The position numbers and the translations under genes are program-made. This document shows, piece after piece, positions 1-61,878 of a stretch of DNA of 64,000 nucleotides. Each line of letters opens with the position of its first letter. The stretch's first letter is position 1. The notes below the pieces were generated by a model that saw only the letters and a list, made by a program, of their open reading frames with translations, was not told the origin of the DNA and did not search any database. Source of the stretch: Acidimicrobiia bacterium (GTDB lineage: Bacteria; Actinomycetota; Acidimicrobiia; Acidimicrobiales; Poriferisodalaceae); assembly GCA_022822525.1 (NCBI GenBank), contig JAJEBN010000024.1, positions 1 to 64,000 of the forward strand, written 5' to 3'.

Positions 1-588
1 TTGTGAAGCTGATGCGTCGAGTTGCAGGTGACGGGGCCAGCCGCCTCGGCAGATGAGCTCGGCGACGTCCGTTGAACTCAGCACCGGGGCGACCGCAGAC
101 ACATGCTCGCCGGCCATCAGCGCAGCCAGTGACACCTCGCCGGAGGCAACGCCAGTCTCCGCCAGCGACATCGGCCTCAGCCGAACACGGATCATGCGAC
201 CGGCCCCCGAGTGGCGAGTAATCGCATCGCCGCGGAGGTAGGAGCCGGTGAAGATGAACTTCCCTGTCGCGCCGTCTTCGTCGGACAGCCCACGGGCCGT
301 GTCCCACACCGCGGGAGCGCGCTGCCACTCGTCGATCAGCCTCGGATGCGACCCTGCTGACAAGAGTTCACGCGGCAACAGGCGCGCCGTCTCGAGCGCG
401 TTCGGATCCTCCGCGAGCATCGATGAGCTGCGGGCACGGCTCAGACCGAGCCATGTCTTGCCGCAACCCTTCGCGCCTTCGATGAGCACCATTGGCGCTG
501 CGGCGAGCGCCGTGTCCAACGTGCCACCCGCGAGACGCGCACGGTGACCACGGCGGGTGAGCGTCGAGGAATCGGCTGCCTCCGCCAT
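1..588 (-). CDS. AAA-family ATPase of the AAA_14/DUF4143 type, N-terminal part
   Basis: The frame is open from an ATG at 588 to the left edge, giving 196 residues; the C-terminal DUF4143 region lies outside the window. Near residue 38 is a Walker A motif, GAKGCGKT, followed by a Walker-B-like LIDEWQ and a sensor-like FIFTGS, the order seen in AAA_14/DUF4143 proteins. These are common in bacterial and archaeal genomes, often in accessory DNA, and their cellular role is mostly unproven. The gene is read away from the repeat array at 596-687, which sits directly upstream of its start and probably controls it. Family assignment is strong; function is unknown. I infer this is accessory cargo because the adjacent gene on the other strand lacks its 5' end. 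Confidence 0.85.
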   Translation of the reverse strand, partial: MAEAADSSTLTRRGHRARLAGGTLDTALAAAPMVLIEGAKGCGKTWLGLSRARSSSMLAEDPNALETARLLPRELLSAGSHPRLIDEWQRAPAVWDTARGLSDEDGATGKFIFTGSYLRGDAITRHSGAGRMIRVRLRPMSLAETGVASGEVSLAALMAGEHVSAVAPVLSSTDVAELICRGGWPRHLQLDASASQ

Positions 589-595
589 GCCTGGA

Positions 596-687
596 GTGTA
601 GCATTTGAACAGTTCCATATGTAGTATTCCTGGACACACAAATGTAGTATTTGTTGCACAACAAATGTAGTGTTCGGGGACCAGCAC
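596..687. repeat. Array of four 23-bp direct repeats upstream of the ATPase
   Basis: The core ATGTAGTATT recurs with an exact 23-bp period at 619, 642 and 665 (the last copy reads ATGTAGTGTT). A decayed copy, GTGTAGCATT, is in phase at 596. The sequence is much richer in A+T than its surroundings. The array ends within 8 bp of the ATPase start codon, so the copies lie on the ATPase promoter and leader. A period of about two helical turns puts each copy on the same face of the DNA, as expected for cooperative repressor binding or iteron-like sites. Confidence 0.75.
651..664. promoter_or_regulatory. Palindrome inside the repeat array
   Basis: TTGTTG-CA-CAACAA is an inverted repeat with perfect 6-bp arms. 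It lies between the third and fourth repeat cores, 63-76 bp upstream of the ATPase start, and looks like a dimeric regulator's operator. Confidence 0.45.
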
Positions 688-1144
688 GGTAGAGCACGTC
701 GGCGTCGGCCACGCCAGCGACCCGGGTGTTCAGTACCGGCACTCATTCAGGCTCTCCACGGACTACGGCGACGCGTGGAAGGCGGCTCGTCCGCAGGTTC
801 GCGAGGTGCGTGGCTTCGTGGCGTGGCCGCCCGCAGGTTTCGTGGCAGACGATCTTGTCCCCCGCAAGTGGTCGTTCTCGCTGGCGAACGCCGACTACTC
901 ACGCGCCATAGTGACCGTTGCCGATCACGTCGGACAACTGTCGGTCAGCGTGATTGGCGAAGACGACTGGTACCGGGAGCACTCGCTCGTGTGGGACGTG
1001 GATATCGCCGCGGCGGAGGTCCAGGCGCGCAGGCCCACCGGTGCCGACCACTGCTTCACCGTGCGCATCGACGGCGTGCGGGTCGGCAATGTTGCACAGC
1101 CGCCCTACGAGTACGCGGTGTGCACCATCGAGACCGCCGACTAG
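671..1144 (+). pseudogene. Remnant of a secreted CAP-associated protein, 5' part missing
   Basis: From just after the TAG at 668 the frame is open to 1144. It encodes a segment with HVGVGHASDPGVQYRH, then GFVAWPPAGFVADDLVPRKW, WSFSLANADYS and a C-terminal DGVRVGN. This is the pattern of the C-terminal domain found in secreted actinobacterial CAP-superfamily proteins. No start codon, signal peptide or CAP domain precedes it; the frame begins inside the last 23-bp repeat. The 5' part was therefore probably lost when the repeat/ATPase segment arrived. A GTG at 806 could start a 112-residue product, but that would cut into the domain. Family recognition is from memory of the motif style and is moderately sure. 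Confidence 0.55.
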
Positions 1145-1174
1145 GCGGCAGAACGGACGGCCGAGACAGGAGCC

Positions 1175-3418
1175 TCAGTCGGTCGCCGCCGGCTGCGCGC
1201 GAGTGCCCGGCGATGCGGCGAGCTCGGCGGCGATCTCTGCTCGGTGCTCGTCGAGGTACGGGGCTCGGCGCATTGCCACGTCAATTCCGCCGATGAGCGA
1301 GCCGAGCTGGATCATCGGGCCCCACTCGGTCTCGGGCAGGTCGACGACGTGACCGTTCTGGACGGCGACTTCGGATCCGACGAAGCCGCGCCGTTCGACC
1401 GGCAGGTCGCTGGTGCCCTCCGGCGTCGTCTCGTGCCACACCCACTCGGGGCCGTCCGCATCGGGCACTTCGAGGTAGGTGCGGTCGGGGCCGGCGCCCC
1501 GATAGTCCATGCCGCCCTGCTCGGCGGCTGGGCGCCCCTCGTAGTCCACGAACTCGGCCGCCTGTGCCGCCATGACCGTCTGGGTGAGCGACGTCCGCAC
1601 TGTCCGTCCCTCGCCGTCGTCGAGGCGCCGGTACAGCGAGCACAGCACTCCGAAGGCGGCAATCATCGGCGTGGCGGCGTCGTGCACCGGCACCGTCAGG
1701 AACACCGGCTCGTCGTCGCCGCCCTGCGCGGCCATGATCCCGCCGAGGGCTTGCAGGAGCGGATCGAACGCCGGCACTTCCGCCATCGAGGAGTCACGGC
1801 CGTAGCCGGGGCTCTTCACCAGTACCGCTTCGGGGCGGATGCGCCGCAGATCCTCATCGGCCACGCCGAGGCGTGCTGCGACGCCGGGGCGGAAGTTCTC
1901 CACGATCACGTCAGCCTCCGATACGAGCTCGGCCATGACTGCGTGGTCGTCAGCGTCCTTGAGATTCAGGCAGATCGAGCGTTTCGATTGGTTCCAGCCG
2001 TTGAAATAGGGACCGAGCACGCGGAACGGATCACCGCCGGGCTGCTCGATCTTGATGACCTCGGCGCCGAGCATCGCCAGGTGGCGGGTGATGACCGGGC
2101 CAGCGATGAACGAGCTGAGGTCGACAGCGTTGACGCCCTGCAGCGGCGCGGTGCCCGGCACCCATGGCTCCGATGCCGCCTGCGCCGGCCATGCGCCTGC
2201 GTGCAGCTCGGCGTCGACCTCGGCGGTGTGCTCGCCGAGGAGCGGGGCCGGCCGCAGCGCGACCTCGTCGCTGCCGTCGATCCACATCGGCTGGGGCGGG
2301 GTGCGCACCGTGCCCAGTTCGGGGTGCTCGACGGCGGTGAGGAGCCCGTTGGCCTGCGCCAGCGACGAGCCCATGAACTCCTCGCGGGTCTGGGTCGGCT
2401 GGCAGGGCACGTCATGAGCGCCGAAGATCTCGAGCCAGTCGTCGAGCGGGCGGGCTGCGAAGGCATCTTCCAGAATCGGCGTGATCTCCGCCAGCGGCTC
2501 GAGGTCGAGCAGGCCCCATGGCGGGTCCGGAAACCGCTCGTCGCCGAGCAGATCTTCGCGGCCGATAGCGCTCAGCATCGCGACGTAGAAGGGAGAGGTG
2601 CCGCAAGCCACGAACATCCAGCGGTCGTCGGCGGCCCGAAACAGCCGGTAGACGGGCAGCCGGCCGGCCGAGCCGAGCGGGCAGGAGCCGTCGCGGTCGA
2701 GATCGGCCATCTCGGGCAGCTCGAAGTCACCGATCTGCATGGCACCTGAGCCCGACACCTCCGAGACGGTGAACGTCGGCGCCGACCCCCGGGCTCGCCG
2801 TGCGTACAAGCCTGCCGCTGCTGCATTCGCTGCGAGCATCCCGGCCCCGTAGGAAGCCAGCGGCACCACCAGCTCAACGGGGCCCTCGGAGTAGCTGATC
2901 TGGTTCCAGCCGATGCCGGTCACGGCGGCCACCTGCGACGGGGTGCCTGCGCGGGTTGCGAACGGTCCCTCGTCGCCCCATGTCGGGCACGAGATGACGA
3001 CGGCGCTGGGGGCATGTTGCCGCACGGCTGCAGCGGTCGGGCCGTCGGGCACGAATGCGACGTCGGCACCGGCAAGCAGCTCGGCCAGCAGCGGCGCGGT
3101 CATCGACGCCGCCGTCGGCCGCAGGATGCCGGGCAGCGACGCTGGCGGCCCGTCGACATCCGCAGGCAGTGGGGCCCGTTCCCATTCGACGCCCTCGGAT
3201 ACCACCGAGCGCTTGTTGCGGCTCACGGCCTGGAAGCCCGGGTCGGCGCGGTACGGGTCACCGCCAGGCGGCTCCACCTTCACCACATCGGCGCCCTGGT
3301 CGGCCAGGAAGCGCGCCGCATACGGCCCGGCGATGCCCGTGGTCAGTTCGACGACCCGCACGCCGGCGAGGCACCGAACATGCGCGCCGCTCGCTGCAAC
3401 AGCGTCGTCCCTGCTCAC
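1175..3418 (-). CDS. Tandem family III CoA-transferase (CaiB/BaiF type), 747 aa
   Basis: Family III CoA-transferases move CoA between carboxylic acids through an aspartyl-CoA anhydride. Two copies of the fold are fused. The first begins near residue 13 (LAGVRVVELTTGIAGPYAAR) and the second near 426 (LQGVNAVDLSSFIAGPVITR), each with its own PGGDP-type nucleotide-binding stretch. The C-terminal copy keeps the catalytic aspartate in FDPLLQ (Asp552). The matching place in the N-terminal copy reads GTPSQV, so that half probably no longer catalyses. I chose the GTG at 3418 because the longer frame would run through the promoter and 5' end of the divergent aldolase gene; no strong ribosome site is visible. 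The substrate is unknown. CaiB relatives act on carnitine, and a carnitine operon lies 12 kb away, but no direct link is visible. Confidence 0.88.
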   Translation of the reverse strand: MSRDDAVAASGAHVRCLAGVRVVELTTGIAGPYAARFLADQGADVVKVEPPGGDPYRADPGFQAVSRNKRSVVSEGVEWERAPLPADVDGPPASLPGILRPTAASMTAPLLAELLAGADVAFVPDGPTAAAVRQHAPSAVVISCPTWGDEGPFATRAGTPSQVAAVTGIGWNQISYSEGPVELVVPLASYGAGMLAANAAAAGLYARRARGSAPTFTVSEVSGSGAMQIGDFELPEMADLDRDGSCPLGSAGRLPVYRLFRAADDRWMFVACGTSPFYVAMLSAIGREDLLGDERFPDPPWGLLDLEPLAEITPILEDAFAARPLDDWLEIFGAHDVPCQPTQTREEFMGSSLAQANGLLTAVEHPELGTVRTPPQPMWIDGSDEVALRPAPLLGEHTAEVDAELHAGAWPAQAASEPWVPGTAPLQGVNAVDLSSFIAGPVITRHLAMLGAEVIKIEQPGGDPFRVLGPYFNGWNQSKRSICLNLKDADDHAVMAELVSEADVIVENFRPGVAARLGVADEDLRRIRPEAVLVKSPGYGRDSSMAEVPAFDPLLQALGGIMAAQGGDDEPVFLTVPVHDAATPMIAAFGVLCSLYRRLDDGEGRTVRTSLTQTVMAAQAAEFVDYEGRPAAEQGGMDYRGAGPDRTYLEVPDADGPEWVWHETTPEGTSDLPVERRGFVGSEVAVQNGHVVDLPETEWGPMIQLGSLIGGIDVAMRRAPYLDEHRAEIAAELAASPGTRAQPAATD

Positions 3419-18923: not shown

Positions 18924-19064
18924 GGCCGCTCGGGCCACGGCTCCGCCCCTCGCCTCCCGCTCTTGTGCGCTCCGCTCACGGGCCGCTCGGGCCACGGCTC
19001 CGCCCCTCGCCTCCCGCTCTTGTGCGCTCCGCTCACGGGCCGCTCGGGCCACGGCTCCGCCTCT
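18924..19064. repeat. 57-bp tandem repeat, about 2.5 copies
   Basis: Two identical 57-bp units (18924-18980 and 18981-19037) and the first 24 bp of a third (19038-19061) are arranged head to tail. The 12 bp before the first unit resemble the unit's end. The length is a multiple of three. It fills the space between the ferredoxin promoter and the molybdopterin oxidoreductase leader. There are no spacers, so it is not a CRISPR array. Confidence 0.9.
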
Positions 19065-58950: not shown

Positions 58951-59023
58951 TTACGCCAGCACGTGTTCGATGCTGCTGGCCTACGCCAGCACGTGTTCGA
59001 TGCTGCTGGCTTACGCCAGCACG
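58951..59023. repeat. 30-bp tandem repeat at the leuS 3' end with stop-bearing hairpins
   Basis: Two 30-bp units (58951-58980 and 58981-59010; they differ at the first base) and the first 13 bp of a third (59011-59023) are derived from the leuS terminus. On the coding strand each unit runs from GCCAGCA to TGCTGGC and then TAA or TAG. At each junction TGCTGGC-GTAA-GCCAGCA or TGCTGGC-GTAG-GCCAGCA forms a perfect hairpin with the stop codon in its loop. The units may be a terminator or simply a slippage duplication. Confidence 0.85.
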
Positions 59024-61878
59024 ATGTTCACCAGCTTGCCCGGTACGGTCACCACGCGCTGGATGTCTGCGCCGGCGGTGAGCTGGGCGATGCGCTCGTC
59101 GGCCTTGGCGGCGGCCTCGAGATCGGCCAGCGAGATGCCGGCATCGACCGTGATTCGGCTGCGGACCTTGCCATTCACCTGCACCGGCACCTCGATCACC
59201 TCGGCCGCCAGCAGTGCCGGATCTGCCTGTGGGAACGGCGCGTAGACCACGGTGGTCGAGTTCCCCAGCTTCGACCACAACTCCTCCGCCAAGTGCGGCA
59301 CGAGCGGCGCCAGCAGGCGTACCAGCACATCAGCGACAGAACGGGGCGTCGGACCGCCCCGGCGCGTCAGCTCGTTGTTCAGCTCGGTGATGCGGGCGAT
59401 CGCCGAGTTGAACCGCAAATCGGACATGGCGTCGGCGACTGCCGCGATCGTCCGGTGCACCATCCGCTCGAGGTCGGTATCGGGCTCGACGTCAACGACC
59501 GTGAGCTCGCCGGTCTGCTCGTCGACCAGGCTCCGCCACACCCGCTGCAGCAGCCGGTGCGAGCCGATCACCGAGTGGGTCTCCCATGGGCGACCCTGGT
59601 CGAGCGGCCCCATGAACATCTCATAGGTCCGCAGCGTGTCGGCCCCGTACGCGCTGTAGATGTCGTCGGGTGTGACCGCGTTGCGCAGCGACTTGCCCAT
59701 CTTGCCGAAGTGACGGGAGACCTCGTCGTCGCCCCAGAAGAACCTGCCGTCGCGCTCGACCACCTCGGATGCCTCGACGTACACGCCTCGGCTGTCCTGG
59801 TACGCGGCCGCCTGGATGTAGCCCTGGTTGTACAGCCGGCCGAACGGCTCGGGCCCGCTGACGTGACCGAGGTCGTACAGCACCTTGTGCCAGAAGCGCG
59901 CATACAGCAGGTGCAGCACGGCATGCTCCACGCCGCCGACGTACAGGTCGACGCCCCCGACCCCGCCGTCGGGGTCAGCCATCCAGAACCGTTCCACCTC
60001 GGGATCCACCAGGGCGTCGTCGTTGGTCGGGTCGAGGTAGCGCAGGTAGTACCAGCACGATCCGGCCCACTGGGGCATCGTGCTCAGCTCGCGGCGGTAG
60101 GCGCGCTCGCCGTCGCCCAGGTCGTAGGTGGCAGTGGCCCACTCGGTGGCGCGGCCGAGCGGCGGCTCAGGCTCCGACGACTCGTCCAGCGCACGGGGCG
60201 CCCAGTCGATCAGCTCGGGCAGCTCCACGGGCAATTCGGCCTCGGGCACGGCCAGGGGCAATCCCGTCTCGTCGAACACGATCGGGAACGGCTCGCCCCA
60301 GTAGCGCTGCCGGCTGAACAGCCAGTCCCGCAGCTTGTAGGTGACCGTGCGGCGACCGCAGCCCCGCTCCTCCAGCCAGCCGCAGATGGCGTCGATGGCC
60401 TCGGCCTTTTCCAAGCCGTTCAGGAAATCGCTGTTGATGGCCGGCCCGGGACCGTCGTAGGCCTCGCCGTCGAAGTCTGGCGGCGGCTGCACCGTGCGCA
60501 TGATCGGCAGCCCGAACCGGACGGAGAAGTCCCAGTCACGCTGGTCCTCCCCCGGCACCGACATGACCGCTCCCGTGCCATAGTCGATCAGCACGTAGTC
60601 GGCGACGAACACGGGCACCGGCTCGCCGGTGGTGGGCACACGGCAGTTCACGCCGAGCCACACGCCGGTCTTGTCACGCTCGGTCTGGCGCTGCAAGTCG
60701 GTCATCGCTGCAGCCTGCGCCCGGTACTCGTCGAGAGCCTCGCGAGGCGTGGCGGCGCCCCCGGTCCAGCGCGGATCGGTACCGGCCGGCCACTCGTCGG
60801 CGACCAGCCCGTCGACGAGCGGGTGCTCGGGTGCCAGCAGCATGGCCGTGGTGCCGTAGATCGTGTCGGGACGGGTGGTGAACACCTCGATGGCTGGGCC
60901 GGACTCGCCGGGCTCGCCGGATTCGCCCGGCTCGGCCCCGGTCGCGAAGCTGATGTAGGCGCCCTCGCTTCGGCCGATCCAGTTGCGCTGCATGATCTTG
61001 ACGCTCTCGAACCAGTCCACCCGGTCGAGATCGGCCAGCAGCCGGTCCGCGTAGGACGTGATGCGCATCATCCACTGCTTCATCGGGCGGCGGAAGACCG
61101 GATGGTTGCCCCGGTCAGACCGCCCCTCGTTGGTGACCTCCTCGTTGGCCAGCACCGTTCCCAGCGCCGGGCACCAGTTGACCGGCGCCTCGCCCAAGTA
61201 GGCCAAGCGGTGCTCGTCCAGCTCGATACGCCGCTCCACGTCGGTCATCTCGGCCCAGGCGGCGCCGCTGGAGGTCGACTTCTGCCCGGTCTCGAACAGC
61301 TCGATCAACTCTGCGATGGGACGGGCCCGCTGCGCGTCGGCGTCGTACCAGGAATTGAAGATCTGCAGGAAGATCCACTGCGTCCAGCGGTAGTACTCGA
61401 CGTCGGTGGTCGCCAGCGATCGCTGGTCGTCGTGCCCGAGCCCGAGCCGGGCCAGCTGGCGCGACATGTTGGCGATGTTCCGCTCGGTGTTGACGCGGGG
61501 GTGCTCACCGGTCTGGCGGGCATGCTCCTCGGCAGGCAGGCCGAATGCGTCATAGCCCATCGGGTGCAGCACCACGTAGCCGCACATGCGCTTGAAACGT
61601 GCATACACGTCGGTGCCGATGTAGCCCAGAGGGTGCCCCACGTGCAGCCCCGAACCCGACGGGTACGGGAACATGTCCATGATGAAGAGCTTTTTCTGCT
61701 GAACCGGCGACCCGCTGAGCTGCGGCCCTCGTGGGGCCGAAGCCAGTGGATTCAGCGGCGTGCGGTACGTGCCGTCGGCCCGCCACCGCTCCTGCCAGCG
61801 CAGCTCGATTTCGTTCGCCATCTCGGCGTTGTAGCGGTAGAGCGGGATACCGGCTTGGTCAGAGGTTCCAGTTGCCAT
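59011..61878 (-). CDS. leuS: Leucyl-tRNA synthetase, 955 aa
   Basis: The class Ia synthetase is complete: the HIGH motif is PYPSGSGLHVGHPLGY, the editing domain contains VFTTRPDTIYGTTAMLLAPE, and KMSKS appears as GKMGKSLRNAVTPDD. The catalytic core continues through TYKLRDWLFSRQRYWGEPFP. I chose the ATG at 61878 because the longer frame runs into the A+T-rich patch and has no LeuRS character. A Glu/Pro/Gly-rich insert (GEPGESGEPGESG) sits just before the editing domain. Its last codons are duplicated in the 30-bp repeat. Confidence 0.96.
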   Translation of the reverse strand: MATGTSDQAGIPLYRYNAEMANEIELRWQERWRADGTYRTPLNPLASAPRGPQLSGSPVQQKKLFIMDMFPYPSGSGLHVGHPLGYIGTDVYARFKRMCGYVVLHPMGYDAFGLPAEEHARQTGEHPRVNTERNIANMSRQLARLGLGHDDQRSLATTDVEYYRWTQWIFLQIFNSWYDADAQRARPIAELIELFETGQKSTSSGAAWAEMTDVERRIELDEHRLAYLGEAPVNWCPALGTVLANEEVTNEGRSDRGNHPVFRRPMKQWMMRITSYADRLLADLDRVDWFESVKIMQRNWIGRSEGAYISFATGAEPGESGEPGESGPAIEVFTTRPDTIYGTTAMLLAPEHPLVDGLVADEWPAGTDPRWTGGAATPREALDEYRAQAAAMTDLQRQTERDKTGVWLGVNCRVPTTGEPVPVFVADYVLIDYGTGAVMSVPGEDQRDWDFSVRFGLPIMRTVQPPPDFDGEAYDGPGPAINSDFLNGLEKAEAIDAICGWLEERGCGRRTVTYKLRDWLFSRQRYWGEPFPIVFDETGLPLAVPEAELPVELPELIDWAPRALDESSEPEPPLGRATEWATATYDLGDGERAYRRELSTMPQWAGSCWYYLRYLDPTNDDALVDPEVERFWMADPDGGVGGVDLYVGGVEHAVLHLLYARFWHKVLYDLGHVSGPEPFGRLYNQGYIQAAAYQDSRGVYVEASEVVERDGRFFWGDDEVSRHFGKMGKSLRNAVTPDDIYSAYGADTLRTYEMFMGPLDQGRPWETHSVIGSHRLLQRVWRSLVDEQTGELTVVDVEPDTDLERMVHRTIAAVADAMSDLRFNSAIARITELNNELTRRGGPTPRSVADVLVRLLAPLVPHLAEELWSKLGNSTTVVYAPFPQADPALLAAEVIEVPVQVNGKVRSRITVDAGISLADLEAAAKADERIAQLTAGADIQRVVTVPGKLVNIVLA

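Follow-up and report, generated by a model that had tools for sequence, protein, structure and literature searches.

Many genes of the AAA_14/DUF4143 family, a very common and unexplained group of bacterial ATPases suspected of taking part in phage defense, are preceded by short direct repeats with a period of 22 or 23 bp. These arrays are real, widespread and specific to the individual gene, and each of them is most likely the operator of the very protein encoded beside it. The proteins studied here match the models of PDC-S01 (AAA_14 plus DUF4143), a candidate phage defense system. One survey ranks PDC-S01 fourth in frequency among prokaryotic defenses (9986 cases in archaea and 29494 in bacteria) and describes validation as pending for most PDCs, the candidate class to which it belongs (PMC12988326); in rumen genomes it is described as the most frequent individual locus (PMC13356809). 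Upstream arrays go unmentioned in the consulted parts of the PDC-S01 descriptions, and the literature searched, largely papers outside subscription, holds no description of 22/23-bp arrays at AAA_14/DUF4143 genes. The arrays are thus the new part here and, as far as the searches show, new for the family; self-bound operators in general are already known. A cognate DNA site would provide the PDC-S01 family with its first biochemical handle, yielding a binding probe, an expression reporter and an assay for protein release, and the many natural protein-DNA pairs would be material for learning a recognition code.

The window array and its gene

The array that gave rise to this analysis lies in a stretch of 64,000 nucleotides, here called the window (positions 1-64000 of contig C73, genome G000), and has the following features.

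1..588, minus strand: AAA_14 ATPase gene, PADLOC PDC-S01; 196 codons present, the gene being truncated by the contig edge
596..605, minus strand: array unit 4, nearest the start codon; coding strand AATGCTACAC, with a similar unit, TGCTACACTC, in L292 and L277b
619..628, minus strand: array unit 3; coding strand AATACTACAT
642..651, minus strand: array unit 2; coding strand AATACTACAT
650..665, no strand assigned: palindrome TTTGTTG-CA-CAACAAA between units 1 and 2
665..674, minus strand: array unit 1, most distant from the gene; coding strand AACACTACAT

On the plus strand, the four 10-bp units start at 596, 619, 642 and 665, with spacings of 23, 23 and 23 bp. The original prediction had described four in-phase copies at this period; the spacing is indeed exact, whereas only the units at 619 and 642 are exact copies (ATGTAGTATT), the unit at 596 (GTGTAGCATT) having two mismatches and the one at 665 (ATGTAGTGTT) having one. 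Read on the minus (coding) strand, the order is AACACTACAT, AATACTACAT, AATACTACAT and AATGCTACAC, followed by 7 bp and then by the ATG start codon of the ATPase (588-586, minus strand). With up to one mismatch allowed, the 10-mer was found three times in the whole window against 0.07 expected, each time in the array. In the 240 bp preceding the gene, self-matching at period 23 scores 18, a value attained at any period by none of 2000 block shuffles of the region (maximum 14). The G+C content is 44% at positions 601-700 and 52-76% in the remaining 100-bp steps of window positions 1-2000.

AAA_14 is recognized in the 196 aa of the window protein (PF13173, 1.4e-11, 45 bits, cut-off 27), and the PADLOC PDC-S01 model matches this part at 1e-27 and the protein L006, from the same genome, at 2.5e-151. 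The DUF4143 part of the window gene would lie beyond the contig edge, and DUF4143 is present in a near-copy on contig C112 (L012), which shares 94% identity with the window ATPase across 163 aa; both genes are truncated by contig edges, and the two copies represent either a recent duplicate or a strain mixture in the assembly.

L277b and L292, which are closest to the window ATPase (70% identity over 169 aa), keep units of the window type beside their genes, with ATACTACACT or CACTACATTT followed by TGCTACACTC at 23 bp, and relatives near 50% identity have mostly other units at a spacing of 23 bp. The palindrome embedded in the array, which had been singled out together with the repeats, is present at 650-665; by eye, it is missing in both L292 and L277b and therefore looks incidental, so that it was rejected as an operator.

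Two further tandem repeats were observed elsewhere in the window: a perfect 57-bp repeat in 2.4 copies at 18924-19061 and a 30-bp repeat in 2.6 copies, with a match of 95%, at 58952-59029.

Distribution of the arrays

Exact copies of the window array were found neither elsewhere in its own genome nor in 396 further genomes from its order. Taken alone, this absence would resemble a refutation, because paralogs and distant relatives have other units; what is kept beside homologous genes, in many phyla, is the period. The window genome has 12 PF13635 places, of which ten have a readable start region, as does the window gene. Among the resulting 11 AAA_14/DUF4143 genes, eight have 22/23-bp arrays (scores 12-39), the period being 23 at L005, L007-L011 and the window gene, and 22 at L006. 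Since the eight arrays have, by eye, eight differing units, they are gene-specific and could hardly be read by one host regulator. Large palindromes and no array are found at L003 and L004, and neither is found at L014.

DUF4143 occurs in all 11 genomes of the genus that were searched, with at least 4 to at least 41 places per genome among the matches listed. The richest are G384, G397, G398 and G303 (at least 27 to at least 41 places), and the other seven members have at least 4 to at least 19. After removal of 24 duplicates and one ORF lacking Walker A, 104 hit ORFs left 79 non-redundant genes with a Walker A motif, for which the best of 51 periods was 23 in 40 genes, 22 in 6 and 46 in 3; shuffles of these start regions had no comparable favored period. 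A period of 13 bp, not 22/23, was seen at L043 and L037, upstream of an ALIGARQCGK-type DUF4143 gene.

An array was called when the best period was 22, 23, 44, 45 or 46 and the self-match score was at least 11. By this measure, arrays precede 158 of 270 non-redundant genes in three pooled sets, 112 genes remaining under the threshold: 47/79 in the genus set, 59/91 in other taxa and viral contigs, and 52/100 in a later set from the genus and other Actinomycetota (16/31 and 36/69), which was obtained from 110 loci and 114 hit ORFs after 11 duplicates and three ORFs without Walker A had been dropped. Real cases are missed by the threshold, since L277b (score 9) and L292 (score 5) fell under it. 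Among the controls, start regions of other ORFs at the same loci (first two sets) had arrays in 4 of 161 cases, and tiles of the same loci exceeded the threshold in 17/644 and 10/1018. Such a regular array had been thought unusual, an impression that is overturned by its frequency in the family.

The named-species set consisted of the best 80 of 546 confirmed relatives, selected with a GPRQ-type Walker A pattern; with 14 loci from viral contigs it gave 94 loci, 91 of which were usable (two were short and one was a duplicate). The best period in these 91 loci was 22 in 38, 23 in 20, 44 in 5, 46 in 4 and 45 in 1. Because the query alignment was led by an array-bearing protein, the best 80 of 546 are biased towards relatives of such proteins, and their share of arrays does not represent the family as a whole. 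With the counts taken over the 78 usable named-species loci from these best 80, arrays were found in Pseudomonadota (29/39), Acidobacteriota (6/6), Verrucomicrobiota (5/5), Actinomycetota (4/4), Bacteroidota (1/6), Nitrospirota (1/3), Spirochaetota, Thermodesulfobacteriota, Myxococcota and Gemmatimonadota (1/2 each), Uhrbacteria, Chloroflexota and Bacillota (1/1 each) and unplaced loci (2/2), with none in Chlamydiota (0/1) and Bdellovibrionota (0/1). Relatives of L108, a family member of 406 aa, are also present in 198 plasmid records. The Walker A pattern matched in five of seven plasmid stretches, and all five have a signal at 22 or 44 bp (Rhizobium etli CFN 42 p42f, Tateyamaria omphalii, Salipiger profundus, Agrobacterium pusense and Pseudomonas mendocina), as exemplified by gene RHE_RS29360 of p42f, with the unit TTTCAATCGGTCA at 22 bp; the script's pattern was unmatched in the stretches from Thermus and Mycobacterium riyadhense plasmids.

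The arrays are similar in size and position. Over the 158 arrays, the median span is 2.8 periods, about two to five units, and the array end precedes Walker A by a median of 105 bp (5-95%, 74-165); the most upstream in-frame ATG follows the 3' end by a median of 16 bp (5-95%, -37 to 80; 155 arrays). Joint phasing of 106 arrays gave a common core, about CAATTGGACG, which recurs across phyla, with phases that are uncertain for several arrays from the genus of the window, and the core consensus over the 59 arrays of L102-L195 is TAAATTTCCAATTGGACG. Within arrays, agreement between copies reaches 0.8-0.9 in some unit columns and is 0.44-0.58 in the last four to five.

The specificity of the core was assessed in 28 genomes, each picked for possessing a DUF4143 gene. 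The pattern ATTGGACG-N14/15-ATTGGACG has 12 sites there, in nine arrays and nine genomes, all 12 of them 84-162 bp upstream of the Walker A of a DUF4143 gene and on the same strand, and the reversed control pattern has no site in these genomes. Of the nine arrays, L332 and L334 are new and the other seven had been part of the array set before, and therefore this search adds only the absence of sites elsewhere. The same pattern matches 24 viral contig stretches, none with a DUF4143 gene beside it within the stretches fetched. Many of the viral matches may be due to chance, and the exclusivity to DUF4143 genes is drawn from the 28 genomes. A longer CAATTGGACG pattern was found in four of these viral contigs, a scrambled version being found in none: the IMG/VR contigs L307, L315, L317 and L319 have CAATTGGACG twice, 23 bp apart, in fetched stretches that contain no DUF4143 gene. 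These two-unit viral arrays are possible decoys or regulators.

Coupling between array and protein

The array period belongs to the protein clade. A FastTree of 168 proteins places 102 of 106 arrays in a single clade (125 proteins, support 99), 23 members of which are without an array; another clade is mostly without arrays. On a tree of 157 array-bearing proteins, the 22/23 label changes 14 times, against a mean of 42.7 and a minimum of 36 in 200 shuffles. Both periods occur in four phyla, namely Pseudomonadota (25 with period 22 and 4 with period 23, thus mainly 22), Acidobacteriota (2 and 4), Verrucomicrobiota (2 and 3) and Actinomycetota (2 and 2). The original prediction had left the array as either the operator of an undescribed regulator or a site bound by the ATPase itself; the data support this pair of options, the second being the better one, because units are specific to each gene and the period tracks the protein.

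The AlphaFold2 model of L108 (47 sequences; mean pLDDT 94.6, pTM 0.93) offers a candidate reader of the array. It combines the ATPase with a part resembling a winged helix, made up of helices 207-219, 227-232 and 238-250 and of strands 254-257 and 273-276, in which helix 238-250 would be the recognition helix and the two strands the wing. The nearest solved folds to residues 1-287 are the archaeal ATPases 2qen (Z 15.3, rmsd 4.8, 251 aligned) and 2fna (SSO1545; Z 14.1, rmsd 5.1, 251 aligned), followed by STAND/NLR ATPases, with 2qen, 2fna, CED-4 and RPP1 at Z 13-15 over approximately residues 1-287; a sequence search for solved relatives returned nothing past short Walker-A matches. In STAND-type ATPases, helical and winged-helix domains follow a nucleotide-binding domain, and C-terminal sensor repeats and an oligomer triggered by ligand belong to the type as well. 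Alignment A4 has invariant residues E335, D337 and K353 and a nearly invariant E351, a pattern which we take to fit a PD-(D/E)XK site. The C-terminal domain of AAA_14/DUF4143 proteins is called PD-(D/E)XK-like in PMC12988326, and the assignment of a nuclease-like domain draws on this description and on the conserved residues, because the fold matches barely reach beyond residue 296.

Covariation between protein and array sequence was measured in sliding windows of 30 columns, partial on full-length identity. The winged helix gave the highest-scoring window in both independent sets, with partial r of 0.156 (n=106) and 0.163 (n=51), exceeding all 200 permutations in each set. In the pooled data, the columns above all 100 permutations correspond to L108 residues 181, 224, 237, 239, 270, 271, 297 and 331, four of which lie at the start of the putative recognition helix (237 and 239) or in the wing (270 and 271). 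The signal weakens under stricter controls. The winged helix no longer leads in pairs below 50% identity with equal period; it leads in period-22 pairs alone, and ATPase windows are higher in period-23 pairs alone. When pairs share 40-95% identity, three of five subsets put the wing (255-280) at the top; in the other two, where ATPase windows (84-102) lead, the wing is fifth or lower, and the recognition helix ranks about 49th to 146th of 377, leading no subset. The covariation is therefore supporting and not decisive.

Proposed autorepression and competing readings

The array is probably the cognate site of the protein encoded by the adjacent gene, which would bind it through the winged helix, oligomerize and repress its own gene. 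In an AAA_14/DUF4143 protein, composed of an AAA+ ATPase, a winged helix and a PD-(D/E)XK-like C-terminal domain, the winged helix would contact one unit per protomer, and several protomers would line up on adjacent units at a spacing of 22 or 23 bp dictated by the oligomer geometry of the particular protein. Such an assembly would hold expression of the gene low, because the array would occupy the promoter and nearly reaches the start codon, and it may be released or rebuilt once the ATPase senses its trigger. Sigma-70-like promoters, called at a score of at least 10 on the authors' own scale, were predicted in 13/33 cases in Pseudomonadota (shuffles, 18/165), in 14/26 in other taxa including four plasmid genes (shuffles, 12/130) and in 16/103 in Actinomycetota (shuffles, 28/515), where the excess is modest. 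Of these 43 predicted promoters, 42 overlap the array, occupation of which would block them.

The geometry of the array bears on the form of the putative assembly. B-DNA has a pitch of 10.5 bp per turn, so that 22 and 23 bp correspond to 2.10 and 2.19 turns and successive sites rotate by approximately 34 and 69 degrees; protomers would thus wind round the DNA and not stack on one face, which, speculatively, would suit a helical or staircase AAA+ assembly. Toxin-antitoxin operators are comparable, in that a protein represses its own promoter via repeats or palindromes near the start codon; the putative self-repression and the location are alike, whereas the arrays described here are in-phase direct repeats with a period specific to the protein. 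A gene of this family, TT_P0211 of Thermus thermophilus HB27, is up 6.6-fold with a plasmid when Argonaute is present, according to PMC4406477, a rise that shows regulation and not its cause.

It is possible, albeit unlikely, that the array is mainly an iteron- or origin-like platform, for an active ATPase oligomer or for measuring invading DNA, with regulation being secondary. Iterons are regularly spaced repeats, which the 22/23-bp spacing over about two to five units resembles, and in iteron plasmid replicons Rep proteins with winged helices have direct repeats beside the gene of the binder. The arrays described here likewise consist of short direct repeats, spaced by roughly two turns of the helix and adjoining the gene of a putative binder; unlike in these replicons, that binder would be an ATPase with a nuclease-like domain in place of a replication initiator, and the units of paralogs differ within a genome. 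The platform reading gains from the fold of L108 residues 1-287, nearest to 2qen, 2fna (SSO1545) and STAND/NLR ATPases (CED-4, RPP1, MalT, Avs), several of which have been solved as large oligomers, these matches barely covering the C-terminal domain; also in agreement with it are the four viral contigs whose fetched stretches contain a two-unit array and lack the gene. Nevertheless, the site sits at the start of the gene itself, and none of the 116 arrays with at least 2.5 copies has a second unit-like match in the fetched locus (column-shuffled control, also 0). A related and likewise improbable idea is that AAA_14/DUF4143 proteins are STAND-like ATPase-nucleases which nucleate helically, with a period specific to each protein, on the array at their own promoter, which would be operator and loading platform at once, and that small decoy arrays of phages, written in the same code, divert or trigger the protein.

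A separate host regulator, either a repressor or an activator, could instead use the array as an operator of the ATPase gene, as the overlap with promoter-like sequences would be expected of operators and a separate repressor of a phage defense island, RptR, is known (PMC12255303). This is quite doubtful in view of the eight differing units at eight genes of one genome, of the period, which tracks the protein clade while both periods occur within four phyla, and of the 28 genomes, where the core pattern, which is also present in viral contigs, is found only at DUF4143 genes.

Still less probable is a mobile element that bears the ATPase gene and has the array as its end or as its target site. 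Copy number does vary within the genus, from at least 4 to at least 41 per genome, and plasmids do carry relatives of L108; on the other hand, the distance from array to Walker A keeps to a narrow range, and transposon-like ends look unlikely, with no further unit in the fetched loci of the 116 arrays, loci that are short and could miss far ends. A non-functional tandem duplication or low-complexity sequence is scarcely credible: slippage can create tandem repeats and the G+C content of the array is below that of its surroundings, but the uneven agreement between unit columns is unlike a fresh duplication, the same period recurs across many phyla and the controls seldom show arrays, so that low-complexity slippage was rejected by these controls and by the core/spacer pattern.

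The preferred reading, in which the protein binds its own operator, may extend to family members without an array. Inverted repeats, called at a score of at least 11 near the gene start, were found in 14 of 27 TLTGPRQ-like array-less genes (shuffles, 2/108), in 8 of 37 other array-less genes (shuffles, 2/148) and in 6 of 106 array genes (shuffles, 2/424). Half-sites were compared with the array core in 18 of the 22 listed palindromes (L188, L012, L040 and L191 were left out) and are partly like it, with 6 of the 18 at p<=0.05 and a combined p of 0.0002. The same protein-DNA contact may thus be used in tandem or palindromic form across the family. Additionally, palindromes with arms of 22-23 bp were observed at the starts of the Bacteroidota DUF4143 genes L163, L175 and L177.
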